64,000 bases of DNA from Agarivorans albus (GTDB taxonomy: Bacteria; Pseudomonadota; Gammaproteobacteria; Enterobacterales; Celerinatantimonadaceae). Below, one piece after another: positions 3,749 through 31,455 of this stretch. Made by a program: the position numbers and the translations under genes. The DNA is taken from contig NZ_AP023032.1 in assembly GCF_019670105.1 (NCBI RefSeq), forward strand, positions 2,412,972 to 2,476,971, in the 5' to 3' direction. The notes beneath the pieces are model-generated. The model saw nothing but the letters and a program-made list of their open reading frames with translations. It made no database searches and was not told where the DNA came from. Each line of letters begins with the position of its first letter. Within the stretch, counting starts at the first letter, position 1.

Positions 3749-4609
3749 TTACGCTAAGCTAGCTGCGCCAACGGGATAAACGGTGATGGTTTCGCCAAGG
3801 GCTTGGCTGATCTTTTGCTCGATCATCGCAAGTGTTCCCGCAGACAAACCGCAGCCAGAACAGGCACCAGTTAACGATACAAACACCATGTCATCATCTA
3901 CATCAGATAGCTGAACATCACCGCCATCGGCTTGCAGCTGCGGGCGAACTTGCTCAAGTGCTTGTTCAATAATTCGTATTCGCGCCACAATGCTGGTAGC
4001 AGCCACTGGGCTTGCTTTTGCTACTTCAGGCTCCGCCAAGGGCGCACCTAGGCATTCTTCTAATACCCACTCAATTTTTTCGTGGCAGGCTGCACAGGCC
4101 CCGCCTGCCTTGGTGTAGTTGATAACCTCGTCTAAGGTCTCTAGTTTGTTTTGCGCAACCACCCGCTTGATAAGCGCATCGTCGATGGCAAAACACTTAC
4201 AAATCAATTCACCTTCTTCGTGTTCTTCCGCTACTTCTTCGCCGCGATATTGAGCAACTGCAGCATGCAAGGCTTCCATTCCCATTACTGAACAATGCAT
4301 TTTTTCTGGCGGCAAACCATCTAGGTAATCGGCAATGTCTTGATTAGAAATGCTCATTGCTTGGTCGATGGTTCGGCCGATGATCATTTCAGTTAAAGCA
4401 GACGAAGAAGCAATAGCGCTACCACAACCAAAGGTTTGAAAACCGGCATCTTCTATCACGTCACTATCGGGATTCACTTTAAGGCTTAAGCGTAAAGCGT
4501 CACCGCAGGAGATTGAACCCACATCGCCAATAGCGTTTGCATGGTCGACAGCTTTAGCATTTTTAGGTGTGAAGAAATGCTGTTTAACTTTTTCTGAATA
4601 ATTCCACAT
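3749..4609 (-). CDS. nifU: NifU, three-domain Fe-S scaffold
   Basis: 286 aa with all three NifU modules. The IscU-like domain (1-125) has Cys in ISCGDA, TFGCGSA and MHCSVMG. The central [2Fe-2S] domain (about 135-180) has CKC and CAAC. The C-terminal Nfu domain (about 208-286) has CSGCG. It assembles Fe-S clusters with NifS and delivers them to NifH and the cofactor pathway. It is the first gene of the leftward nifUSVWZM operon, preceded by a sigma-54 promoter, two NifA sites and a structured leader described separately. Confidence 0.96.
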
Positions 4610-4645
4610 ACGCTACCCCACAATGTTTTATAAATTGGTAGTGGC

Positions 4646-4761
4646 GATAACCCGTTGCTAAAGTCACATGCTGCCTAAAACTGAGTGTTGATAAGCCATT
4701 GGGAACCTAGAACACAGCGTTTCTTGCTCATTGGCAGCAAACTCATCAACAACGGGTTATC
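4646..4761 (-). promoter_or_regulatory. Structured leader of nifU operon (12-bp inverted repeat)
   Basis: Seen: GATAACCCGTTG at 4646-4657 and its exact complement CAACGGGTTATC at 4750-4761. Inside, TGCTGCC (4669-4675) and GGCAGCA (4733-4739) form a nested 7-bp stem separated from the first by internal loops. A strand of the internal loop (4742-4749) can also pair, with one G-U, to 4688-4695 in the apical loop, a possible pseudoknot. The element starts about 4 nt after the expected sigma-54 transcription start and ends about 36 nt before the nifU ATG. It may be a leader RNA, a stabilising structure or a small palindromic repeat; I recognise no known riboswitch. Confidence 0.55.
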
Positions 4762-4775
4762 TCCCAACTAAACTA

Positions 4776-4793
4776 TTGCAAGTGAAGTACCGG
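4776..4793 (-). promoter_or_regulatory. Sigma-54 promoter of nifU
   Basis: Read on the minus strand the site is CCGGTACTTCACTTGCAA: GG and GC are separated by exactly 10 nt, matching the -24/-12 rule (TGGCAC-N5-TTGCA). Expected start near 4765, giving a leader of about 155 nt before nifU. Confidence 0.75.
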
Positions 4794-4858
4794 ATAAGAA
4801 AATTTATATAAAGCACTGTATTTGTTAGCTTATTTACTTTTTTAACAGCCAAAACCAG

Positions 4859-4874
4859 TGTGAGTTACATCACA
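4859..4874 (-). promoter_or_regulatory. NifA upstream site that is also a perfect CRP-type palindrome
   Basis: The sequence TGTGAGTTACATCACA fits NifA TGT-N10-ACA and at the same time the CRP half-sites TGTGA-N6-TCACA. It is centred about 100 bp upstream of the predicted nifU start, a normal distance for a NifA enhancer site. Which protein binds cannot be told from sequence. Confidence 0.65.
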
Positions 4875-4886
4875 TTTAGGTAGCCT

Positions 4887-4902
4887 TGTAAGATATGCGA
4901 CA
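4887..4902 (-). promoter_or_regulatory. NifA upstream activator site
   Basis: TGT-AAGATATGCG-ACA is an exact TGT-N10-ACA match, centred about 130 bp upstream of the predicted nifU transcription start and 28 bp from the second site. Confidence 0.7.
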
Positions 4903-4996
4903 TCACATTGTTGGGTTAAACGACAATTTGTAAACTAGCGATCCGGTTTCAGGATACAAACAACTCTGGATTCGCTTTGCTTAATGCTAATTAGAA

Positions 4997-5060: not shown

Positions 5061-7076
5061 TTATTCGTCAACGAGTTTCCAAGTGCGGATCCAATCAACC
5101 TTCATGGTATTGTTGTTATCGTTAAGCAAGTCTGTTTTTTGCGGCAAACCACCTACCCAACTTGAGTCTTGGCTCCATAAGTCCCAAATAACAAACTGCT
5201 CTAGTGTAAACGGCTGTTGTGTAGTGACTTTATTAACCGGTTCACCGTTTAGATAAAACTGTACAGTGTGTTCATCTTTCCACCATGCACCAAATACATG
5301 GTAATCATCTGTCCATAACACACCTTGCAAGGTGTTTTCATCTGACAAATCTGTACGGTTGTCCGAGTTGCCATGATTTCTTTCGGTTGAACCATTCTTA
5401 GCAATAAAGTACTGAGAGTTCATCTTCCACGGGAAATCTGGCTGACAATTACAGGTAGGAACCGGGTTAATTTCAATAATATCGATTTCGTCTCGATTAT
5501 TTATATCGCCATTGTTTAACCAAAAAGTACTGTAGGCAGAGATATTGGCCACCTTAATGCGGCTCTCTGTGTACATAGGAAACTTAATTTTGGCAACTGA
5601 ACGTACCCGTGAAGTTTCGAACCACTGATTAGGGCTATCAGCATTTAAGGTTGCTTGTATCCAAAGATTGCCATCCGACACACCCGAGTTTTTGTTCAAC
5701 ATGTTTACTGGGGTATTGCCATAGTTCCAGTTGGTTTTTATCCATTTGGCGCCATTCCAAAACTCAAACTCGTCGGACAAACTTTCTACTTTTTCCCAGC
5801 GCTTACCTAAAGGCGTTGTGTTGTTAAACGATACAAAGCTTGGCAAGTTAGCATCAGCGGTATTTACATCTATTACTCCAGGAGAGTTTGGCTCACATCC
5901 GGTGTTATCAACGGTAACGCCAGGAGGTGTGTTAGGGCATTGATCGACATCATTGCTGACACCGTCATTGTCATCATCAAGTTGCGATTGCGCACAGCCA
6001 TCTTGATTTACAGGCTGGTTGGCTGGAGTGTTAGGGCATAAATCATTTACGTCGAGTACCCCATCGCCATCGCTATCTAGCAAAGGTGGATCAACCGGGT
6101 CTGTAGGCTCACCTTGCCATTCCAATTTAAACGACGCTAAGTTCCACTGCCAGTCATTGCTACCCAGCGCGTGAATACGTAACTTTTGCGTGCCGGCCGC
6201 TAAAGACACTTCGTTAGCTGGGCTAAGTTCAGTAAAATTGTCCCAGCCATAAGCAGGAACCGACGCTTGAGCGTAAGACACCCAGCTGCCATTTTCTAAT
6301 ACTAAAAGCTCAATCTGTACGTTTGACGTAATCGCTGTTCCCACATTAAAAGTAACCTGGTACTTTCCTGCGCGGTCAATCTCTACGTTGTAGTCTACAA
6401 AGTCGCCGCTATTAATATAATTAATCGCCGACTGCCCCGCTACGTTGTAGATGCTTACTGGGCTTTGCTGATTATCATCAAAACTGCCTCCTTGACTTAC
6501 AAAGCCTGCGGCTTGAACTGTAATGGTGCCACTAGGATCGCTAGCAACATTTTCGTCAAAGATAAAACGAAACTCTTGGTTAGGATGGTCGGCTAAGCAG
6601 GCCCATTGGTGGAACTCTGAGCCTTTTTCAGTATATGCACCCGCTACGTCGAGGCATTTTCCGGTGGCACGGTTTTTAAGTTTAAACCAGCCATTATTCA
6701 TATCTTGCAGTGACCATTGCTGATTAACACTAGCATCTGCACAAGTGAGTTGCTGAATACGCGCGCCGTTTGCAGAGTTACTATCCGCAACCTCTAAACA
6801 CTTTTGGCTTGTTTTGGTTTTAATACTGTAAAAACCCTCGCCTTGCTCAACAAACTCAAGCCGTTGGTTGCTGTTGTTTTCGCCGCAAGTCCATTGGCTA
6901 AAACCAGAAAAATTAGCAGTGTTTCCCCCGGTCAAATCAATACACATTCCGCTATGTCGAATCTCAACATTGCGAAAATCTGCATTACTTACTGTAACGG
7001 CATGCACAGCATTGCTCGCCGAAAAAGCAAACGCCAAGGCAATGCCTAGCGAAAGATTATTTTTACGAATCATCAT
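5061..7076 (-). CDS. Secreted modular GH16 beta-agarase (CBM13-CBM6-TSP3-GH16)
   Basis: About 671 aa using ATG at 7074-7076, where a GGA sequence precedes and a signal peptide begins (MMIRKNNLSLGIALAFAFSA); the frame is open a further 33 codons upstream. Order: signal peptide; ricin-type CBM13 with QxW/NQ repeats (about 29-175); CBM6 (about 183-320); two calcium-binding thrombospondin type-3 repeats (DSDGDGVLDVNDLCP, DDDNDGVSNDVDQCP; about 332-393); GH16 catalytic domain (about 410-671). The catalytic motif is E530-I-D532-I-I-E535, as in agarases and porphyranases. It should cut agar-type galactans outside the cell. It lies alone between two nif blocks, with its own terminator. Exact substrate (agarose or porphyran) is not certain. 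Confidence 0.88.
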   Translation of the reverse strand: MMIRKNNLSLGIALAFAFSASNAVHAVTVSNADFRNVEIRHSGMCIDLTGGNTANFSGFSQWTCGENNSNQRLEFVEQGEGFYSIKTKTSQKCLEVADSNSANGARIQQLTCADASVNQQWSLQDMNNGWFKLKNRATGKCLDVAGAYTEKGSEFHQWACLADHPNQEFRFIFDENVASDPSGTITVQAAGFVSQGGSFDDNQQSPVSIYNVAGQSAINYINSGDFVDYNVEIDRAGKYQVTFNVGTAITSNVQIELLVLENGSWVSYAQASVPAYGWDNFTELSPANEVSLAAGTQKLRIHALGSNDWQWNLASFKLEWQGEPTDPVDPPLLDSDGDGVLDVNDLCPNTPANQPVNQDGCAQSQLDDDNDGVSNDVDQCPNTPPGVTVDNTGCEPNSPGVIDVNTADANLPSFVSFNNTTPLGKRWEKVESLSDEFEFWNGAKWIKTNWNYGNTPVNMLNKNSGVSDGNLWIQATLNADSPNQWFETSRVRSVAKIKFPMYTESRIKVANISAYSTFWLNNGDINNRDEIDIIEINPVPTCNCQPDFPWKMNSQYFIAKNGSTERNHGNSDNRTDLSDENTLQGVLWTDDYHVFGAWWKDEHTVQFYLNGEPVNKVTTQQPFTLEQFVIWDLWSQDSSWVGGLPQKTDLLNDNNNTMKVDWIRTWKLVDE

Positions 7077-7426
7077 ATATTCCATTATGTTTTGGCTAAT
7101 CACATTTAGTTCAAAAACCGAACAGTAGCCTAGAAACAAAACAAATAGAAATAAAAAATTAGCCAATAAAAACAATCAATTAAAATACAAAATCACAATA
7201 ATTGTTAAGCCATAAATAGTACTTAATAAAGCCATTTATAAAGTGAGGAGTAGATCATTTAAGTAAACATTTTCAAAAATATTTAGGCCTAATTTGGCGT
7301 GAATAAAGAGGAAGTTTTTAAGTATTACATTAGTAATTATCTAAAAAATAATTTTTCATAGTTGCTGATTAACAGCAAAGACCTAGCAGCGACAAGCATG
7401 CGCAAACAATAAACGGCCTGGCAGTA
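7077..7426. other. AT-rich gap upstream of the agarase
   Basis: About 350 bp, visibly richer in A/T than its neighbours. It must hold the agarase promoter. A weak hairpin (TTGCTG 7362-7367 with CAGCAA 7373-7378) lies downstream of the rseC-like gene but lacks an adjacent T tract. I see no convincing ORF, sigma-54 site or exact NifA site here. Confidence 0.5.
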
Positions 7427-7864
7427 TTACGGTGTGGGTTTAAGCGATAGTTTGTTGCGTAGCTCAGAGGCTAAACCACGCGATAAGCGTCGACTTACCA
7501 GCAAACCCAATACAAAACCCAAACAAGCAAAACCGGCACAGGCAATATCAAGTAAAGATGGTTCAAGAAAAAACAGTAATTGATTAGTGATCAGCGCAAA
7601 GCTAATTAAACCAAACAATGCAGGCATTAAGGCTGCCAAGATAGCTTTGAGTAGAAAGCTATCTTGGCAATTAAGGGTAATGTTTTGACCAAGTTCTAAA
7701 CCTTGAGTTGCTGAGAATTCTGCATTAAGTAGGTTTGGTGACTCTGGATTAACGGTTAAGCAACTACTCTTACTGGCGCACGAAGTACATGCACTGGCGC
7801 GCTGCCCTTGCAACACAACCTTGTCTTTGTCGACACTAATTACCTGCATGCTTATCTGCGCCAT
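7427..7864 (-). CDS. RseC/MucC-family membrane protein in nif operon
   Basis: About 145 aa using ATG at 7862-7864, which has AGAGG 8 nt upstream; an earlier in-frame start would overlap the ferredoxin gene. The N-terminal part has C26-x2-C29-x5-C35 (ACTSCASKSSC), the RseC/RsxC-linked cysteine motif, followed by two hydrophobic membrane segments (about 80-100 and 105-125) and a basic tail. Family members are linked to SoxR-reducing Rnf-type complexes and RpoE control. In a nif operon it may support electron supply or Rnf function; that role is inferred. It is the last gene of the nifENX-fdxB block. Confidence 0.75.
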   Translation of the reverse strand: MAQISMQVISVDKDKVVLQGQRASACTSCASKSSCLTVNPESPNLLNAEFSATQGLELGQNITLNCQDSFLLKAILAALMPALFGLISFALITNQLLFFLEPSLLDIACAGFACLGFVLGLLVSRRLSRGLASELRNKLSLKPTP

Positions 7865-7877
7865 AGCAACTACCTCT

Positions 7878-8183
7878 TTACACCAACGCACTGGCAGGCG
7901 TATGGGTATGACAATTTTTGGCGCAAACGGTAGAGCAAGCTGAGCAGCCGATACAATCGCCAGCGTTGGCTAATTCCATCACCATTACTACGTCGTCTTC
8001 ATAATCGTCAAACGCTTCATCGTCTTCGTCAATTTCACGCTCAACTAGATCAAATACGTCGCGAGGACATACTTTGTAGCAACGCCCACAACCTATACAA
8101 GCACCTTGATCTAGCGCTGTTACAAATTGTGGCTCCCAGGGCGTTCCATCGCGCGTTAAGCCCATGTATGTTTTATGACTCAT
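7878..8183 (-). CDS. fdxB: Nif-specific 2[4Fe-4S] ferredoxin (ferredoxin III, FdxB type)
   Basis: 101 aa with two full cluster motifs: C29-x2-C32-x2-C35-x3-C39P and C77-x2-C80-x2-C83-x3-C87. Between them is an acidic insert (EIDEDDEAFDDYEDD, 50-64) as in ferredoxin III proteins of nif clusters. It should carry low-potential electrons for nitrogenase or for cofactor assembly. It lies after nifX (33-bp gap) and before the rseC-like gene. Soluble, cytoplasmic. Confidence 0.9.
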   Translation of the reverse strand: MSHKTYMGLTRDGTPWEPQFVTALDQGACIGCGRCYKVCPRDVFDLVEREIDEDDEAFDDYEDDVVMVMELANAGDCIGCSACSTVCAKNCHTHTPASALV

Positions 8184-20438: not shown

Positions 20439-21359
<921 letters not shown>

Positions 21360-21362
21360 CTA

Positions 21363-21379
21363 TTGCCAGAACCGTTCCA
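21363..21379 (-). promoter_or_regulatory. Sigma-54 promoter of nifH
   Basis: Minus strand TGGAACGGTTCTGGCAA: GG and GC are 10 nt apart (-24 TGGAAC, -12 TGGCA). Expected start near 21353, about 36 nt before the nifH ATG. It overlaps one arm of an 8-bp inverted repeat. Confidence 0.75.
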
Positions 21380-21729: not shown

Positions 21730-24700
21730 ATGAAGCCAGTTGTCTACGTTGACATCGAAGGTCAAATTTGGAAAGTCATGGGTGATGGACGTTGGCTCAA
21801 GGTTGAACCAACTGAAATAATCGATAGCAGCATCCCCCTAGTTAAAAACCTAGTGAGTGATGCTGAACAAACCATCGCAGATAGCGAACTCGACTCCACT
21901 GAAACTAATAACAGCCAACAAGATAGTCCACCCTTGTACTCTGGGAATACTTCCCCCCTCAGCGGCGAGCAAGGTAGCCAAGGCGCGTCCTTTATCGTTC
22001 GTGTACAGCCCACATTAGATGAAACCCTCCCAGAAGCAGGCTTTAATACACAAGCGACAGAGCAAGCTGTAACAAATACCAATCAACAGGGTGCTCAAGC
22101 TGACCAAATTCCTCCTTTAAGTAACCAAGCGCAATTAACAGTGAATATTGTAGATGGCGGCGATGGCTACGAAAACCAGTTTGAAGTACCGGCTGTACTA
22201 ATTACCGGCGAGGCACCAGATGTAGAAGATGGTCGCATCGTAGTGATTACGCTTACCGATTCTGCAGGGCAAACTCTAACTGTAGAGGCTGTAGTACGTA
22301 ACAATAACTACAGTTACCAAGATCTCGATATTCAATCGCTAAACGAAGGACCGATTGATGTTTACGCTAGCGTGACTGATTACTTTGGGCAGTTTGTCGA
22401 TGCCAACGATTCAAGCATTAAAGATGTAACGGCTGTTATTGAAGCGGAAATAGATGGCCAAGGCGACAACTACGTAAACCAGTATGAACAAGCGATTACT
22501 CCCTTATATGGAAACATAATCGGGATAGAAGACAATCAAGTGGTACTGGTGCAAGTTGTTGATGAGTCAGGCCAGCAACTCAGTTTTACCAGCCAAGTGC
22601 TTAACAACAGTTGGAACATCGCCAGCGCCGATTTGACGGCCTTACAAGATGGCGTGTTAACCATTAACGTTAGCGCGGTAGACATAGCTGGAAACCCTGC
22701 ATCAGCTAGCTCTACAATCATTAAAGATACTCTCGCAAGCTTAACTGCCGATATCGATGGAGTTAACGACAACTATATAAATGCTATAGAGTCCCCTTCT
22801 ACTTTACTATACGGCCAAGTTGCAGCCGTTGAAGATGGCCAAATAGTTAGTGTTACGGTTACAGACAATAACGGTGAGCAGCTAAGCTTTCAAACCACGG
22901 TTACTAATAACAGCTGGCAAATCAGTAATGTTGATTTAACACCTTTAGCTGAAGGTAGCTTAACCATTACCGCCAACACCTCTGATATAGCGGGCAATCT
23001 AGCGAGTGCTAGCTCATCCATTGTTAAGGACACCTTAGCTAACATCAGCGCAAACATCGATGGCCAAGGCGACAATTATGTAAATGCCTTAGAGGTACCA
23101 GCGACACAGTTGTTTGGTGAAATAACTGATGTTGAAGATGGCCAGTTAGTTAATATTCAAATTACCGATATAAATGGTGCAAGCCTTAACCTAAAAACTA
23201 CCGTCGCCAACGGACAGTGGTTAATACCTAGCAGCAATCTGAGTAACCTAGCCGATGGGGAGCTTAACTTAACGGCATCTACCAGTGATATTGCTGGAAA
23301 CTCTGTTTCCGCAACCACCAGCATCATCAAAGACACCCAAGCTTCAATTAGCGCTCGTTTTGAAGGAAATGGTGATAACGCGCTCAACCAAGCCGAAGTG
23401 GGACAAAGCCTTTTAGAAGGAGAATTAGTTGATGTAGAAGATGGCCAGCCAATAAACATTACCGTTACCGATAGCTTAGGCACAAGTTTACAATTCACCA
23501 CCACCTCTCTAAATAACCATTGGCAAGTTGTAGAAAACTTAAGTGGCTTGGCCGACGGTGAATTGCAGTTAACAGTTACAAGTAACGACATTGCCGGTAA
23601 CCCGGCATCGGCTAATAACGTAATCACCCTAGACACCAGTATCCCCACCATCGATATAGATACTCTAGATGGATTTAGTATCTCTCAATTTAAAGCTGGC
23701 GTTCTCACCAGCCTCCAAGGTACTACAAGCGGCGTTGAACCAGGCCAACAAGTAATCATTACTATTACAGATGGCCCCCGTACTGTTATTGCCTTAGCCA
23801 CCGTTGATCAAAACGGTGACTGGCTAACTAACAATATAGATACCAGTGAACTAAATAAGTTGGCTAATTGGATACTGACAACCGAGGTGAGTGATGTAGC
23901 TGGAAACAGTACGCAAGATGCCCTACCGCTGCTTGCTGAGCCCGACCCTCATAACCTATTGGAAACCGACTTGTATCAAGCTGGTGTATTAGTCACAAAC
24001 TCCAACGTTAATATTTTCGATGCTCAAGAGATCACTTTTTCCGAGCTACAACCTGAACTGGTAAGTATCCAATCTGGCGGAAGTAACTTAACCATCTTTA
24101 ATTCAGCCGACAATAAAGTACTCGAAGGCAGAACCACAGATACCAATGAGTTGGTATTTAGATTTAGTGTATTGGCTGACAATTCCATTCAAACTCTAAT
24201 TTACAAAGCCTTAGACAATACCCTTGATACCGATGAAACCTTCTTAACACCGATTATTTCAGCCACTCAATATGATGCAGATGGCACAAGCGAAACCGTA
24301 CTTACCCCGCTCGTAATTTTGGTTAAAGACTCGGTGCCGCAGCTTTTTAACGACTATGCCCAAGTTACCGAGGGTGATAGCGTTTTTGGTAATGTTATTG
24401 CCAACGACTATAGCTTGGATGGCGAGCTCAAGGTTAACCAAGTCACTGTTGATGGTGTCACTAAAGATGTTGGAATTGTGCCTGCGGTATTCATTACTGA
24501 GCAAGGGTATCTGTTGGTTGATGACTCAGGTTATTGGTTATTTGTTGCTAACCGAAATTTAGATCATCAACAAGCACAAGAATTGCGCTTTGATTATCAA
24601 GCTATCGACAGCTCCGGTGACACAGCCTCAGCGCACAATAACATTGTGATAAGTGATGGTTCACAAGGCAGCTTTGTTAATGATTTTAAATACAATACCG

Positions 24701-27700
24701 AAGGTAGTCTTAGTGACTCGCCCAACGTGTTCACAGAAAGCTTTACCATTAAACCAGGTAGCGACAATCCAGATCCTGATAGCGTTAAGTTTAGTGAAGC
24801 GACACTGGTTGATTTAGAATCATTAGCGCTGACTAGTGGTAATAGTTTAATAGACCTTAGCTACAGCCTGAGTGATGACGGCAAAACCATAAGTGCAGAA
24901 GTACCGTTTATTGGATTGGTTTTTACCCTTAGTTTAAGCGCAATCGCGAATGGCGATGAGGTAAATGGCACTACAACGCTAACCATGTTTGATAGCATCA
25001 ATCAGTTTAGTAGCAGTGATTTAAGCTTTATTAAGCTCACTATTTTGTCTAGCGACTTAGACGGCACCGCAAACGAACCTGGCTTAATTGACTGGGTACT
25101 AGCCGACGGGACTGACCCGCAATTAACCAATAATGAAAGCCTAAACTTAAGTGAAGCGGAGTTAAACTTAGGCACAGTTACAGCCAGTGGCAGTATAGAT
25201 TTAACTATTGGTAGTGATGCGATTGACGAGTTGTTTTTCGATAATCAGCAAACGGCAATGACCAGTGGTGGAGAAAGCCTCTCATTTGCAGTGAGCCCTA
25301 GTGGCAATACCCTAACAGCCTATACAGATGACGTTAATGATCCAGTATTCACTATAGTCATTGACGATTTAACCGATGCTCATCAGAGTCAAACACTAAG
25401 CTATGAGTTTTCTCTGTATAAAGGGCTAGACCAAAACAACGGTAGCCATTTCCCTATTAAGATAAATGTACGGGATAGCGATAATGACACCCAATCACTA
25501 GCGCTTGATATAACTGTAACTGACAGTGATGACATTGCGGTCACCGTAGGAGACTTACAAGTAAGCGAAACACCGCGTGATCCAGACACAACGCTCACTA
25601 TCAATTCAACCGCCACAACCACCGTTTCGGTAACCGCTAATCAAGACCCAATAGAAAAGCTATTCCTTGATATCACCAACGGTAGCCCAGTTTTAGATAG
25701 CTTAGGCAATACCATCAGTCAAAATGGCCAAGCCTTAAGTTGGCAAGATAATGCTAATGGCACGTACGATGCTGTTTATGGCAATACAGTTGTATTCAGC
25801 CTCAGCTTACCCGACGACTTTGAGTTAGCCGCCAATAGTTCTATTGACGTAGAGTTAACATTTAACCTGTACAGCGCTATTGATCATTTAGATTCATCGC
25901 AAGATCATGCTCTGTCGCTTAGCCTACCAATAAGTGCCACCGATACTGATGGCACTAGCATTGCTGCAAGTTCAATAGTCACAATTTATGATGGCAGAGA
26001 CCCCAAAATTGAAACCGCGGGGCAAATTGATGTAAATGAATCCGATTTAGCCAATGGCAACATTGCAAGTGGCATTTCTACAGTTAGCCCAACCATTAAA
26101 GTAAGCGCTGGTAGCGATGAGATCACAGACATTCTTTTAGATACAGCAGCATTTAATGCCTTAGGTATTCAATCTGGAGGAAGCCCTGTCAATCTAGCGG
26201 CTGCAAATAACGACGGTTGGTACATAGCAACAAACGATCTAGCAGAGCCAATATTTCAAATAAAAATAAATACTGATGGCAGCACCGAATTTGAGCTATA
26301 CGCAGCCTTAGATCATCCCGATGGTAACGGCGAAAACTTACTAGCGCTAGATTTTGTCGCTACTGCTATAGACGCAGATAATGATGTTAGCGCAAGTACA
26401 AACTTTAGTGTCTCTGTTACCGACGATACGCCCCAAAGTGAAAACCGCAGCTTAGATTTGGTTGAAGGCGAAAGTTTTAGCACCCAGTTACTTAATGAAA
26501 CAGTTAGCGGCAGCGACGGGGCTAGTATTGTTAGCTTCAATTATATGGGCACTAACTACGCTATAGCAGCGAACAGCTCTGTGACCATAGACTTACTAAA
26601 TCCAAATTTGTTGAGCGAAGTTTACGGTGAACTAACCCTACACGCCAATGGCGAACTGGTTCTAACAACAGAATCCAATGTCACTGAATCTCCAGCATTG
26701 CTTGATTCCATTTCCTACGTAGTAGAAGACAATGACGGCGACCAGGTAACTAGCACAGCCACCTTAAACCTAGGTGATTCTCCAGGGGTAATTAGAACCG
26801 AAAACGCAGAAACAACAGAAGATAACAGCGTTACTTTATCTATTGAAGTTCGCCCCGGCGATACCGACCAAAATGAAGCCGTTACCAATATTATTATCGA
26901 CGAAACGTCGTTAAATGGCGGTAGCCTATTTCTTGGAAATACCTTATTGGTTGCTAGTGGTGGGTTGATTACCATCACCGATTTGCAGTTTAGCGGCAAT
27001 GTCGCTAAACCCAATGGAGTATTAAGCTATCAACCAGCCGAAAACGAGTCCAACACCACCAGCTCAGTATCCTTAGCGATTAGTTCTACCATTTCTACCC
27101 TTTCGGGTGACCGCGTGATCAGCAGCAATCTGGAGGTATCTGTTTTACCTGTAGCAGACCCCCCAACTTGGAGTGGGTCATCACAATATACATACAACAT
27201 GGTTGAAGACGACGATAGCAACCAAACCCTCGACATTACAGCTAACTTAGTCGATTCAATAGATGGTTCAGAAACACTTAGCTATCAATTTGCTGATTTA
27301 CCCGACGGGCTTCAACTTAGTTTAAATGGCAACCCGGTAACCGAAGGCAAAAGCTATAACCAAAACCAACTAGACCAAATAACAGTAAAAGCCGATAACA
27401 ACTTGGCAGGCCAATTCACCTTCACTTTAATTGCCATAGCAACCGAAGCTGGCAATGCATTTGCCGCTGCAAGCGACCAAACAGCTCAAACAAGCCAAAC
27501 AGTAACGATTAATGTTCAACCAGAAGCTGATTTACCTAGCCTTTCGGTGAGAAATATTAAAGGTTTAGAAGATCAAGCCATTAACCTAAGTGACGTGATA
27601 GCAGGCCAACTAAATGATACTGATGATTCAGAGACCTTAAGCTACAAAATTGTAGTGCAAGACGGCTGGCAAGTATCTGGTGGTTCTACAGTATTGAGCA

Positions 27701-30700
27701 GCCCAAACACCTACCTTGTGCAAGCTAATGAACTTGATGCTGGCATAGTGAGTTTAATACCCAAGCCAGATATAAGCTCCTTTACAGAGAGCTTAACGCT
27801 GAGTGTAACCGCAATTGCTAGCGAATCTACCATCGACGGTCTCGTTCCCTCTCCTGTCACTGCGGAAAGCTCTGCTCAAATCATCACAGTATCACTAACT
27901 GGTGTCGTTGATACCCCAACAGTAGCCGACGCAGGTGCCGGTAACTGGGCAATCGACCAAGTAAACAATGTAATAAGCAATCAAGCTAGCTTTAATGAAG
28001 ATCAATTATTTGCCTTAGACTTTGAGTTCTCAACTTCAGACGATGACGCCTCAGAGAACATCAACTTACTCATAACCAATCTGCCCGACAACATACGCTT
28101 AGTTGATAGCCTAGGTAATCCCTACCCATTAGAAGTGGTGGGGAAAGACCCAGTAACAGGGGCTATATATCAAGTAAACAATAGCATTCTGTCACAGCTA
28201 TTTGTAAAAACCGATGATGACTTTAGTGGTGAATTAAGCTTCGATATTAAAGCTATTTCTACTGAGCCCGATGGCGACAGCGGTGAATTTGAATACACCG
28301 TAAACATAGAAGTATCTCCGGTGGTAGATGAAAACGATGGTGCTAGTTTATTCACCCAAGCAGTAGAAGACCGAAATGTTTCATTAAATCTAATGCCTCC
28401 TTTAAGCGCAGATAGTGATGGTAGTGAAACTATCACTGCATACACCATCACTAGTTTACCTAGTGACTTACATTTATTTATCGACGGCGTCCCAGCATTG
28501 GTTCCGCCAGGAGGATTAGACTTAAGCACCTTGTTTGATCCTAACACCACTAACTTAGCCAACTTTTTGTCTAGCGGACAATTAACTATTCGAGCTGACG
28601 CTGATCTTAGTGGCGACTTTACTATTCCAATTAGTTACCAAATAGTTGATACCTCACCAACTGGCGCTACCGATACAAAAAATCTCACTGCAAATCTACA
28701 GATAGACGTGGAAGGCAGAGTTGAACTGGATACGCGTTTAGAGGCAATCACAAGCCCCTTAGAAAGCAACGACGGAAGCGCTATTTCACTTGATGGTAGC
28801 GTGCTTTTTGTTGATTCAGATTTAGATGGCTCTGAATACTTAGACTACATAGAAATCGTAATCCCAGAAGGTGAATTCTTTCAAGTAGAACACCCCAACG
28901 GTGCAATAATGGGAGCCAACAACAATTGGATTATTCCAGCAAACGGATTAACCAGTGATTCTGTGGCAGAAACCGCGGCAGACATTTTGGCTGGCGCAAG
29001 CTTATACAGCGCGCTGAATACAGATCAAGTCACTATTACAATTAGAGCAAGGGTGATTGACGATGAAGATGCACGCTACATTTCAGCCCCACTGCAAGTT
29101 CAAGTAAGCGGTCATTCTGGTGGAGACACAGTACCTTGTACTCCTTCAGCTCCCGGAGATTTATCTAATTCAATCGTTGATGCCAACGAAGGACAAGATA
29201 TAGACGTAAGCGGCCATTTAAATGGCGACATCGCCAATGACCCTAGCGACGTGATTTCATTTTACATATCTGTAGACGATTTACCCGATGGCGTGGAGCT
29301 AGAAGGTGCAGAAATATATCCCGAATACAACGCATTAGGAAACGTTACCGGCTATACAATTTCGGCTAGTGCCATCGAAACGATGACAATAACTGGCTTA
29401 GATGAAGATTACGCTGGCCAATTAGACATTCCTGTTACGGTGATCGTAACTGATACTTGTACTGGGGATAGCATCTCCGAGCAGCAAGCAATCAGTATTT
29501 TAGTACAGCCCATCGTCGACGACATATCCCTCACAATTAGTAACAACGTCATCCAAGAAGATACTAGTACAAATCTCAATATGGCTTTTGTTTTGGGCGA
29601 CTCGAATATACCAGGTGAAGGTATAGAAACCGTGAATAGCCTAATCTTTACTGTTCCAGCTAATAGCAGTTTTATTGGTGACTCAGCAATCATAACTAAT
29701 AACGGAGACGACACTTGGACAGTAATAGATCCATCTAGGTTAAATGAAATCGAGTTTAGACCACCCAACAATTTTAGTGGCCAACTTACTATCGACGTAG
29801 CAGCCAACATCACTGATTTAGCCGATGGCCTGCTGGATACCCAAACCAAAAACACCAGCTTAACGATAAAAGTTCAACCAGTTGCCGATCAAGTTCTGCT
29901 AGCAGCTATTAACAGCAGCGGAGATGAAGACAACTATATTAAATTAGATGGCTTAGCCGCCCACCAAATAGACTTAGACGGCTCGGAAACTGCGTCGTTA
30001 AGTATTCACGGCGTGCCAGAAGGAGCTGTACTCAGCTATTTTGATGGCAGTAACTATCAACTACTACAAAACAACGGTGCTGATGGCGGAAGCTTCAATG
30101 GCGCTCCAACGCATGCCTGGGGTGTAGGCAGTAGCCAGTTATCTGAAATCTACATACTGCCACCTCTCGATTTTAGCGGCGATATTCCGCTAATATTCGA
30201 AGCCATAAGCCTAGAAACTGCAAACAATGATTTTAAAGTAAGTACTCAAGACTTTGTGGTAGGTGTTAATCCGGTCGGTGATGATAGCCAATTCTTCGAA
30301 GTGCCAGAAAGCTTAAGCTCTGACGAGGGCATAGCCATCGACATCCCACTTAATATAAGCAGTTTTGAAACTGATAGTAATGAACAGATATTGGTTGGCC
30401 TAGAGGTTAATAACAGTTCTGATGCTTCAGCTCTAACGGGGTTAGATCGCATTGTTATTAATGGCCAACAAGCGCATTTTGTTTATAACGGCTCAGGCTA
30501 CATTGCTTCATTGCTGATTAATGCGGCTTCAGTGACAAGTTTACAACTGTATGCCGGAGACGCATTTGGCCAACTAGATGTAACACTTTTCTCCCAAACC
30601 AAAGATAGTGCATTTGTACTAGGTAGCGAAGTGAGTGATTTAGGCGATGTAACCACAGAAAACCTAACTATTAACATCAGCCCCCTGCCCGATCCTCCCA

Positions 30701-31455
30701 TTGTAGAACTGCAGTATTCCCACATTTATGCTGAGCAAAGTGGCGATATTCCTCTAGGAATAAGTATGGATTTAATTAACCCAGCCGCTGGAGAGGAAGG
30801 CAAAATAACTATTTCCGGGATCCCCGACGGCATAGAAATAGCTGGCCAAGCGGGCAATAACGGCCAGCTAGAATTTATGATGAACGAAGTTGCAGATCTA
30901 GCAATTACAGGCGGCCATAACTCAGCAACCAATTTCACATTACTAATCGACAGTTCGGCAACGCTAGATGACAACAAAGCTGAAGGTATTAGCCAAGAAC
31001 TCGAAATATCACTAAGCCCTGTTGGCGATAATACTTTAGATGGCGAAATTCAACAGGATCTAATTATTGGCGGTGCCGGTAACGACCTACTATCAGGCGG
31101 ATTAAATAACGATGTTTTTGCTTTTAGAACAGAAGATCTTGGCAGCACCGGCAATCCAAATCTCGATACCATTAGCGATTTTAACGCAGCAGAAAAAGCA
31201 GATGCCATAGACCTGAGCAGTATTTTGCATGGCTTAGGTGTTAACAACGGAAGTAGCGCCGAAACATACATTCAGCTTAGCGAACAATCAGGCTCTACCT
31301 TATTAGAAATAAAACCTGACACCACAAACGTCACCCAAAGTATCCAGTTATCGGGCGTGAGTTTGGATGAACTTTACAAAGGCGACGCTAGCCTTGCTGA
31401 CCAATCGGATTTACTTCAAAAAATGATTGATGACCAAAACCTAATAGTGAGTTAA
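21730..31455 (+). CDS. Giant type I-secreted repeat adhesin
   Basis: 3241 aa, acidic, without an N-terminal signal peptide. Residues 1-35 (VVYVDIEGQIWKVMGDGRW) resemble the start of LapA-type retention modules. Then come about six Ig-like repeats of about 100 aa (residues 135-735), a block of T1SS-143-type repeats (about 950-1570), and about ten cadherin-like repeats marked by DxDGSE-LS and D-SG-L (about 1570-3090). One RTX nonamer region (IIGGAGNDLLSGG) and a T1SS C-terminal signal (VFAFRTEDLG to the end) finish it. It should be exported by the adjacent ABC-HlyD-TolC system and mediate surface attachment. No double-alanine LapG site was seen. Only two cysteines exist, C2470 and C2577. Confidence 0.9.
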   Translation: MKPVVYVDIEGQIWKVMGDGRWLKVEPTEIIDSSIPLVKNLVSDAEQTIADSELDSTETNNSQQDSPPLYSGNTSPLSGEQGSQGASFIVRVQPTLDETLPEAGFNTQATEQAVTNTNQQGAQADQIPPLSNQAQLTVNIVDGGDGYENQFEVPAVLITGEAPDVEDGRIVVITLTDSAGQTLTVEAVVRNNNYSYQDLDIQSLNEGPIDVYASVTDYFGQFVDANDSSIKDVTAVIEAEIDGQGDNYVNQYEQAITPLYGNIIGIEDNQVVLVQVVDESGQQLSFTSQVLNNSWNIASADLTALQDGVLTINVSAVDIAGNPASASSTIIKDTLASLTADIDGVNDNYINAIESPSTLLYGQVAAVEDGQIVSVTVTDNNGEQLSFQTTVTNNSWQISNVDLTPLAEGSLTITANTSDIAGNLASASSSIVKDTLANISANIDGQGDNYVNALEVPATQLFGEITDVEDGQLVNIQITDINGASLNLKTTVANGQWLIPSSNLSNLADGELNLTASTSDIAGNSVSATTSIIKDTQASISARFEGNGDNALNQAEVGQSLLEGELVDVEDGQPINITVTDSLGTSLQFTTTSLNNHWQVVENLSGLADGELQLTVTSNDIAGNPASANNVITLDTSIPTIDIDTLDGFSISQFKAGVLTSLQGTTSGVEPGQQVIITITDGPRTVIALATVDQNGDWLTNNIDTSELNKLANWILTTEVSDVAGNSTQDALPLLAEPDPHNLLETDLYQAGVLVTNSNVNIFDAQEITFSELQPELVSIQSGGSNLTIFNSADNKVLEGRTTDTNELVFRFSVLADNSIQTLIYKALDNTLDTDETFLTPIISATQYDADGTSETVLTPLVILVKDSVPQLFNDYAQVTEGDSVFGNVIANDYSLDGELKVNQVTVDGVTKDVGIVPAVFITEQGYLLVDDSGYWLFVANRNLDHQQAQELRFDYQAIDSSGDTASAHNNIVISDGSQGSFVNDFKYNTEGSLSDSPNVFTESFTIKPGSDNPDPDSVKFSEATLVDLESLALTSGNSLIDLSYSLSDDGKTISAEVPFIGLVFTLSLSAIANGDEVNGTTTLTMFDSINQFSSSDLSFIKLTILSSDLDGTANEPGLIDWVLADGTDPQLTNNESLNLSEAELNLGTVTASGSIDLTIGSDAIDELFFDNQQTAMTSGGESLSFAVSPSGNTLTAYTDDVNDPVFTIVIDDLTDAHQSQTLSYEFSLYKGLDQNNGSHFPIKINVRDSDNDTQSLALDITVTDSDDIAVTVGDLQVSETPRDPDTTLTINSTATTTVSVTANQDPIEKLFLDITNGSPVLDSLGNTISQNGQALSWQDNANGTYDAVYGNTVVFSLSLPDDFELAANSSIDVELTFNLYSAIDHLDSSQDHALSLSLPISATDTDGTSIAASSIVTIYDGRDPKIETAGQIDVNESDLANGNIASGISTVSPTIKVSAGSDEITDILLDTAAFNALGIQSGGSPVNLAAANNDGWYIATNDLAEPIFQIKINTDGSTEFELYAALDHPDGNGENLLALDFVATAIDADNDVSASTNFSVSVTDDTPQSENRSLDLVEGESFSTQLLNETVSGSDGASIVSFNYMGTNYAIAANSSVTIDLLNPNLLSEVYGELTLHANGELVLTTESNVTESPALLDSISYVVEDNDGDQVTSTATLNLGDSPGVIRTENAETTEDNSVTLSIEVRPGDTDQNEAVTNIIIDETSLNGGSLFLGNTLLVASGGLITITDLQFSGNVAKPNGVLSYQPAENESNTTSSVSLAISSTISTLSGDRVISSNLEVSVLPVADPPTWSGSSQYTYNMVEDDDSNQTLDITANLVDSIDGSETLSYQFADLPDGLQLSLNGNPVTEGKSYNQNQLDQITVKADNNLAGQFTFTLIAIATEAGNAFAAASDQTAQTSQTVTINVQPEADLPSLSVRNIKGLEDQAINLSDVIAGQLNDTDDSETLSYKIVVQDGWQVSGGSTVLSSPNTYLVQANELDAGIVSLIPKPDISSFTESLTLSVTAIASESTIDGLVPSPVTAESSAQIITVSLTGVVDTPTVADAGAGNWAIDQVNNVISNQASFNEDQLFALDFEFSTSDDDASENINLLITNLPDNIRLVDSLGNPYPLEVVGKDPVTGAIYQVNNSILSQLFVKTDDDFSGELSFDIKAISTEPDGDSGEFEYTVNIEVSPVVDENDGASLFTQAVEDRNVSLNLMPPLSADSDGSETITAYTITSLPSDLHLFIDGVPALVPPGGLDLSTLFDPNTTNLANFLSSGQLTIRADADLSGDFTIPISYQIVDTSPTGATDTKNLTANLQIDVEGRVELDTRLEAITSPLESNDGSAISLDGSVLFVDSDLDGSEYLDYIEIVIPEGEFFQVEHPNGAIMGANNNWIIPANGLTSDSVAETAADILAGASLYSALNTDQVTITIRARVIDDEDARYISAPLQVQVSGHSGGDTVPCTPSAPGDLSNSIVDANEGQDIDVSGHLNGDIANDPSDVISFYISVDDLPDGVELEGAEIYPEYNALGNVTGYTISASAIETMTITGLDEDYAGQLDIPVTVIVTDTCTGDSISEQQAISILVQPIVDDISLTISNNVIQEDTSTNLNMAFVLGDSNIPGEGIETVNSLIFTVPANSSFIGDSAIITNNGDDTWTVIDPSRLNEIEFRPPNNFSGQLTIDVAANITDLADGLLDTQTKNTSLTIKVQPVADQVLLAAINSSGDEDNYIKLDGLAAHQIDLDGSETASLSIHGVPEGAVLSYFDGSNYQLLQNNGADGGSFNGAPTHAWGVGSSQLSEIYILPPLDFSGDIPLIFEAISLETANNDFKVSTQDFVVGVNPVGDDSQFFEVPESLSSDEGIAIDIPLNISSFETDSNEQILVGLEVNNSSDASALTGLDRIVINGQQAHFVYNGSGYIASLLINAASVTSLQLYAGDAFGQLDVTLFSQTKDSAFVLGSEVSDLGDVTTENLTINISPLPDPPIVELQYSHIYAEQSGDIPLGISMDLINPAAGEEGKITISGIPDGIEIAGQAGNNGQLEFMMNEVADLAITGGHNSATNFTLLIDSSATLDDNKAEGISQELEISLSPVGDNTLDGEIQQDLIIGGAGNDLLSGGLNNDVFAFRTEDLGSTGNPNLDTISDFNAAEKADAIDLSSILHGLGVNNGSSAETYIQLSEQSGSTLLEIKPDTTNVTQSIQLSGVSLDELYKGDASLADQSDLLQKMIDDQNLIVS
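22132..23637 (+). repeat. Tandem ~300-bp repeats encoding Ig-like domains
   Basis: Units begin near 22132, 22443, 22743, 23049 and 23352, so the period is about 300 bp (100 aa). Each unit encodes a start like IDGQGDNYVN, a middle VEDGQ and an end SDIAGNxASA. The DNA copies have diverged at many silent sites, so this is an old array and not a fresh expansion. Confidence 0.8.

Follow-up and report, generated by a model that had tools for sequence, protein, structure and literature searches.

The predicted leader of the nifU mRNA of Agarivorans albus contains a long RNA hairpin whose basal stem has kept its pairing through compensatory changes across the genus, and whose conserved apical core, GGUUCCC, has its complement at the very 5' end predicted for the nifHDK mRNA, with one compensatory change between the two partners. 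On balance we consider it somewhat probable from these comparisons that the nifHDK mRNA is bound there in trans by the apical loop, a pairing that would couple the two operons. NifU and NifS build the Fe-S clusters needed by NifH and the rest of nitrogenase, and because of this dependence supply and demand have to be balanced. Coordination of nif genes is usually credited to their common NifA/sigma-54 promoters; a direct link between the nifU and nifH mRNAs, if true, would add a post-transcriptional layer.

A covarying hairpin in the nifU leader

The window, by which we mean the whole stretch of 64,000 nucleotides analysed, comes from a genome of 4.79 Mb in one contig (G000). Since nifU lies on its minus strand, this is also the RNA strand of the leader, for which the following features were assigned:

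3749..4609, minus strand: nifU coding sequence, 286 aa (NCBIfam TIGR02000 NifU_proper, 435.5 bits)
4610..4766, minus strand: predicted 5' leader of the nifU mRNA, about 157 nt (predicted from the promoter)
4643..4661, minus strand: basal stem P1, 3' arm (covariation across the genus alignment)
4669..4675, minus strand: inner stem P3, 3' arm (covariation across the genus alignment)
4733..4739, minus strand: inner stem P3, 5' arm (covariation across the genus alignment)
4746..4764, minus strand: basal stem P1, 5' arm (covariation across the genus alignment)
4778..4791, minus strand: sigma-54 -24/-12 promoter element of the nifU operon, GGTACTTCACTTGC (consensus match)
4887..4902, no strand assigned: candidate NifA-type upstream site TGT-N10-ACA (consensus match)

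The pattern GG-N8-TTGC at 4791-4778 fits the consensus of a sigma-54 element. Within the window the pattern occurs at chance level (41 found, 41.4 expected), and the promoter assignment is therefore carried by its place and by its recurrence before nifU in relatives: of 26 nifU genomes compared, 24 have it ahead of the gene, the exceptions being G010 and G011, which have no recognisable promoter directly before nifU. From this element the nifU transcript is predicted to start at about 4766, so that the hairpin lies between the predicted start and nifU and P1 begins at +3. The initial annotation, made from the letters of the window, had the structure begin almost exactly at the expected sigma-54 start and end about 36 nt before the nifU start codon, and both placements hold, the 12-bp repeat described below ending 36 nt before the ATG. 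A TGT-N10-ACA sequence, presumably a NifA-type site, is present no more than 420 nt ahead of nifU in every one of the 24 genomes scanned, including all 14 with the hairpin element. Separately, a perfect palindrome TGTGA-N6-TCACA lies upstream of the nifU promoter at 4859-4874, kept in all seven genomes of the genus and imperfect in the three genomes of genus g305; we assume it to be CRP-type, though it also fits the TGT-N10-ACA pattern assumed for NifA, and carbon control of nifU through it is possible.

A perfect 12-bp inverted repeat (4646-4657 with 4750-4761) and, nested within it, a 7-bp stem (4669-4675 with 4733-4739) had been read from the sequence, and both are present, the former extending to 15 nt at a 93% match (4643-4657 with 4750-4764). 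The minus strand from 4766 to 4600 folds better than all of 200 dinucleotide shuffles (z -3.60), and the plus strand over 4640-4800, for which 2 of 200 shuffles did equally well, gives z -2.28. In the genus alignment, P1 carries changes on both sides in 8 of its 18 pairs (13 such cells) while 94.4% of cells stay paired; none of 500 shuffles was as good and slid controls were 28-58% paired. P1 is thus an RNA stem. P3 shows both-sided changes in three of its seven pairs, and its covariation score was matched by 14 of 500 shuffles. The third helix proposed, an 8-bp crossing pairing that would make a pseudoknot, can be drawn on the RNA strand with one G-U pair, but there is no covariation to sustain it: both-sided changes were absent from the genus alignment, six of the eight pairs have an unpaired cell, and the helix is broken at three of eight positions in G004 and at four (plus one gap) in G005. 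The covariation check on the three helices was thus strong for P1, moderate for P3 and empty for this one. An alternative crossing helix, 4741-4744 with 4683-4686 plus adjacent pairs, shows almost no variation among the genomes of the genus and, being nearly invariant, lies beyond the reach of covariation. The suggestion of a cis-acting RNA is supported in part, in that the P1/P3 covariation and conservation throughout the genus speak for an RNA fold conserved within the predicted transcript of nifU. A transcription attenuator seems unlikely, as no terminator-like site was found in 4550-4950.

All seven genomes of the genus have nifU, and all seven have the element, with one blastn match each. 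The search for further copies called for by the initial annotation returned a single copy in G000, by blastn as well as by a covariance model, which also gave one match in G005. The apical stretch GAGCAAGAAACGCUGUGUUYUAGGUUCCCAAUGGC varies in the genus alignment only at a single C/U site and by the loss of one base in G005, and the promoter region upstream is much more variable. With blastn the element found no match in the other five genomes of the family, two of which (G008, G009) carry a diverged counterpart. Plasmids gave no match to the element, and viral contigs no exact site of the pattern. A pattern search of 369 genomes of the class, allowing up to three mismatches, returned the element's own site and nine sites with three mismatches, and the reversed pattern, used as a control, gave five sites in five genomes. 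Among at least 560 nifU loci from further contigs, the best 80 lack the core, save for two unrelated GTTCCC matches.

Some neighbouring genes of the window may be recorded here. Between the nifENX genes and nifU, 5061-7175 encodes a protein with ricin-type lectin and CBM6 domains, agarase-like by eye; in G000 and G003, and in none of the other five genomes of the genus, short marker strings from it lie in the 1500 nt before nifU, so that the gene is perhaps a recent insertion into the nif cluster. The reading frame at 7430-7891, directly after a ferredoxin-like gene in the nifENX group, has a weak match to the RseC/SoxR-reducing system (39 bits, far under the model cut-off), and the one at 540-1004, in the position of nifZ, has no NCBIfam match at E 0.001. 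Adjoining nifH, 21730-31455 encodes a 3241-aa repeat protein with Big_13 and a sub-threshold RTX match, followed by genes that by eye resemble a type I secretion system.

The apical core and the 5' end of the nifHDK mRNA

An order-wide survey of 394 genomes found 37 with a close nifU, for which 30 nifU loci were fetched. All genomes available for family f200 (7) and for the family to which the window belongs (12) were searched. The nifH comparison rests on 26 genomes, 14 with the element and 12 without, and takes in none of the 11 genomes of family f185, of which 7 nifU loci were not fetched and four nifU leaders were read, no core being seen in them. The 14 element-bearing genomes belong to five genera including that of the window, since four further genera (g292, g305, g3 and g319; seven genomes, loci L105 to L111) have a diverged counterpart before nifU. 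These seven leaders are 106-188 nt long, with a long hairpin that begins about 10 nt or less from the predicted start and bears GGUUCCC near its apex; those of g305 also have an 18-nt string, CUGUGUUCUAGGUUCCCA, in common with the window. Fold z-scores lie between -0.69 and -8.18 for the leaders of the 14 genomes with the element. For the ten others with a promoter, whose leaders measure 32-85 nt, they lie between +1.52 and -1.85, a range into which G418 (z -1.05) and G469 (z -0.69) of the first set also fall. The covariance model built on the genus recovered no nifU leader of other genera except that of L111 at E 0.098, and as no covariance-model score supports it, the link across genera rests on place, the long 5' hairpin and the core. 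In a tree of NifH and NifU, the 14 genomes form one clade, split from the 12 others by a branch with support 0.991, so that the co-occurrence of the core with its nifH motif counts as one origin.

The core and its predicted partner are located as follows:

4700..4707, minus strand: apical core GGUUCCCA, including GGUUCCC, the only sequence common to all genera and complementary to the predicted 5' end of the nifH mRNA
20439..21317, minus strand: nifH coding sequence, 292 aa, of the proposed trans partner operon nifHDK (TIGR01287 nifH, 473 bits)
21346..21353, minus strand: predicted first 8 nt of the nifH mRNA, UGGGAACC, complementary to the nifU core (from the promoter position)
21365..21378, minus strand: sigma-54 promoter element of nifHDK, GGAACGGTTCTGGC

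The nifH mRNA of the window is predicted to begin UGGGAACCGUUUAUC, and its first eight bases are perfectly complementary to GGUUCCCA, the core of the nifU leader. All 14 element-bearing genomes have GGAAC where nifH mRNA is predicted to begin, and 12 of them have GGGAAC there, G008 and G009 having CGGAACC instead. None of the 12 nifH leaders from genomes without the element contains GGGAAC, and two contain GGAACC or GGAAC, at the ribosome site in G665 and near +1 in G591. Only two hexamers, GGUUCC and GUUCCC, are common to at least 13 of the 14 nifU leaders, and only three, GAACCG, GGAACC and GGGAAC, to at least 12 of the 14 nifH leaders; the complements of both nifU hexamers are among the latter. 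In six representative genomes the motif begins at +2, counted from the start predicted for nifH; none of the remaining sigma-54-like matches has it within its first 27 nt, in a scan that covered these six of the 14 genomes and, outside the genome of the window, the stretches fetched.

At least GGUUCC/GGAACC is kept as a complementary pair in each of the 14 genomes, or GUUCCC/GGGAAC in the case of G005. The match is 7-9 nt long in 12 genomes; G008 and G009 have six perfect pairs together with one wobble or bulge. The core of G005 is short of one G (UAGUUCCC) and its nifH reads GGGAACUA, a double change by which a G-C pair becomes A-U and an A-G mismatch becomes a new U-A pair. When the columns of the nifH leaders of the six representatives were permuted, none of 200,000 permutations had the complement in all six, a control that breaks conserved runs and hence flatters the result. 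By a stricter control, in which the letters of the motif were rearranged, the real sequence was the only one among 210 versions of GGTTCCC with a complement in all six. Duplexes of core and nifH have computed energies of -10.8 to -17.2 kcal/mol, for opening costs of 2.2-4.6 on the nifU side and 0.2-4.7 on the nifH side.

Several findings weigh against pairing in trans. Swapping core and nifH partners between genera gave pairs as good in 416 of 720 permutations, and a second test gave p 0.88; own pairs are no better than swapped ones because the motif hardly varies. Covariation between the partners amounts to the single compensatory change in G005. Shuffle tests in single genomes were mostly non-significant (longest match p 0.015-0.57), the longest reported match lies outside the core in 4 of the 14 genomes (G396, G418, G008, G009), and G621, without the element, has an 8-nt match. 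For G008 and G009, the core fits their own nifU ribosome-binding region (-16.0) better than nifH (-10.9 and -10.8). The conserved UGUUCUA 5' of the core is unexplained by nifH pairing, and in predicted folds part of GGUU is already paired.

As a side observation, G002 and G005 (L086, L088), the earliest-branching genomes of the genus, have UUUUA 5' of the core where the others have UUCUA, and AAAAGG or AAAGG at the nifH ribosome site, where the other genomes of the genus have AAUAGG. By eye, the UUCUA region and the nifH Shine-Dalgarno sequence are a possible second contact.

Proposed pairing and competing explanations

According to the mechanism that we propose, the 5' end of the nifU mRNA would form the long hairpin, holding the conserved C-rich core GGUUCCC near the apex, and the C-rich loop would meet the G-rich extreme 5' end of the nifHDK mRNA, which, once paired, might as a first guess be shielded from 5'-end-dependent decay. 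An effect on the stability of nifHDK is favoured because the duplex would cover the first nucleotides and leave the nifH Shine-Dalgarno sequence free. The core may also pair in cis with the Shine-Dalgarno region of nifU (GUGGGG), from which the nifH mRNA might free nifU for translation, and this second effect is favoured because the core fits the nifU ribosome site in cis. The computations establish the basal stem as RNA, the conserved core, its complementarity to nifH and the single compensatory change; from the sequences we infer the transcription starts, the pairing in the cell, its direction and its effect. Tentatively, and with more doubt than confidence, the nifU leader may be viewed as a bifunctional RNA, in what would be a new kind of control over nitrogen fixation. 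Its apical loop would bind either the ribosome site of its own mRNA or the nifHDK mRNA at its 5' end, so that the output of the Fe-S cluster machinery would follow the amount of nitrogenase mRNA, which the hairpin would also cap and protect. The feature on which the cis step turns is the following:

4610..4621, minus strand: nifU ribosome-binding region GUGGGGUAGCGU, unchanged in all seven genomes of the genus and complementary in part to the core

The same feature figures in a rival reading, a translational switch acting in cis only, in which the core pairs with the Shine-Dalgarno region of nifU and is released by a ligand, a protein or temperature. Element-bearing genomes have unusual, G-rich nifU ribosome regions (GUGGGG, GUGGG, AGGGG), which within the genus do not vary down to the ATG; pairing energies with the core range from -6.4 to -16.0 kcal/mol, with nine contiguous pairs in G008 and G009 (UUGGUUCCC/GGGAACCAA). 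With the widest core, in 9 of 36 settings, own partners surpassed swapped ones (p 0.021-0.049), but not with narrower cores (p 0.14-0.34, 27 of 36 settings) or in a first swap test (117/720), core shuffles gave p 0.04-0.57, and G454 pairs poorly (-6.4). Pairing of the core with the nifU ribosome site is therefore suggestive. As the whole explanation a cis switch is unlikely, since it leaves the nifH motif and the double change in G005 unexplained.

We give little credence to three further readings. A plain stabilising hairpin, blocking 5'-end-dependent decay irrespective of its sequence, would agree with the stem seen in the genus, which starts near +3 of the transcript as predicted and carries compensatory changes, but it has no need of a genus core that hardly varies over about 35 nt or of GGUUCCC across five genera, and its probability seems small. 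A ligand-binding riboswitch of unknown class before nifUSV, for which a conserved core enclosed by covarying stems, placed where a biosynthetic operon begins at its 5' end, would speak, is equally improbable: no Rfam family reached its gathering score anywhere in the window, a permissive search of 4560-4900 returned one chance miRNA match only, the core shared across genera is just 7-18 nt in widely different surroundings, and both a terminator in 4550-4950 and support for the 8-bp pseudoknot helix are lacking. The complementarity of the cross-genus GGUUCCC to the predicted 5' end of the nifH mRNA also leads away from a classical ligand riboswitch. Thirdly, GGGAACC/GGTTCCC could be recognised as DNA by a protein that attaches to both operons close to the transcription start, the complementarity being a by-product of opposite orientation. 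Both sites are altered together in G005, as co-evolving operators could be, but in nifU the site falls close to the apex of the covarying RNA hairpin, at about +60, in nifH it falls at about +2 and in the opposite orientation, and it is not palindromic, which makes this, too, a poor candidate. Weighing against DNA sites and trans pairing alike, GGGAACC occurs in the window at chance frequency (3 found, 3.4 expected).

The small palindromic insertion that the initial annotation named as its main alternative (MITE-like, or else an attC-type site) would account for the long inverted repeat but fails on a single copy in G000, one match per genome at the same place in 7 of 7 genomes of the genus and compensatory changes in the stem, and is barely credible. 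A leader peptide of 23 codons from an ATG at 4746 (MSLLPMSKKRCVLGSQWLINTQF), whose frame is open in G000 with the single C/U site of the core synonymous, is ruled out with negligible residual probability, as the ATG is missing in G004, the one-base deletion in the core breaks the frame in G005, and by eye there is no ribosome site at the usual distance.

Comparison with known systems

Pairing in trans between the nifU leader and the nifHDK mRNA, the reading that we prefer, gives a precise 8-base prediction and, if true, would be a new form of riboregulation between mRNAs in trans; should the trans step fall away, there remains a covarying nifU leader RNA with counterparts in five genera that is new to Rfam. 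We know of no earlier mRNA-mRNA pairing among nif genes, so that to our knowledge nifU-nifH would be the first. Among the matches listed, by title, in the open-access PMC literature, none concerns a structured nifU leader or nifU-nifH mRNA pairing. With Rfam families and metabolite riboswitches the leader has in common a structured leader with a conserved core, and it differs from them in that the window holds no match at gathering score.

Nitrogenase mRNAs are described as being stabilised by base pairing or sRNA action in the cases of NfiS-nifK, NfiR-nifD and sRNA154-nifH (PMC9170634). These regulators differ from the nifU leader in being separate non-coding RNAs with other targets and sites, and the word nifU is absent from the main text of the review of nif sRNAs in which they are treated (PMC9170634). 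Another case is the pairing of hly and prsA2 in Listeria, where two mRNAs of functionally linked genes pair in trans with an effect on stability (PMC8079631). As in our proposal, one mRNA pairs with another and the 5' UTR of one partner is the target, whereas the other partner there is the hly 3' UTR and the interaction is experimentally proven, compared with a 5' leader hairpin and a computed pairing here (PMC8079631). The pairs irvA-gbpC and vigR-folD/isaA are likewise instances of an mRNA that acts also on another mRNA, and differ from the nifU leader in genes, phyla and architecture (PMC12559287). The nearest likeness to the possible protection of an mRNA end is found in RoxS-yflS, where a C-rich region of the sRNA sits on the extreme 5' end of the mRNA and blocks decay from that end, with FasX-ska as a second case (PMC5419742). 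RoxS and FasX are free-standing sRNAs of Firmicutes, RoxS acting against RNase J1, whereas the core described here lies within the leader of another mRNA in a gammaproteobacterium; common to both is a C-rich core, here by prediction, that meets a G-rich extreme 5' end, which it may protect (PMC5419742).
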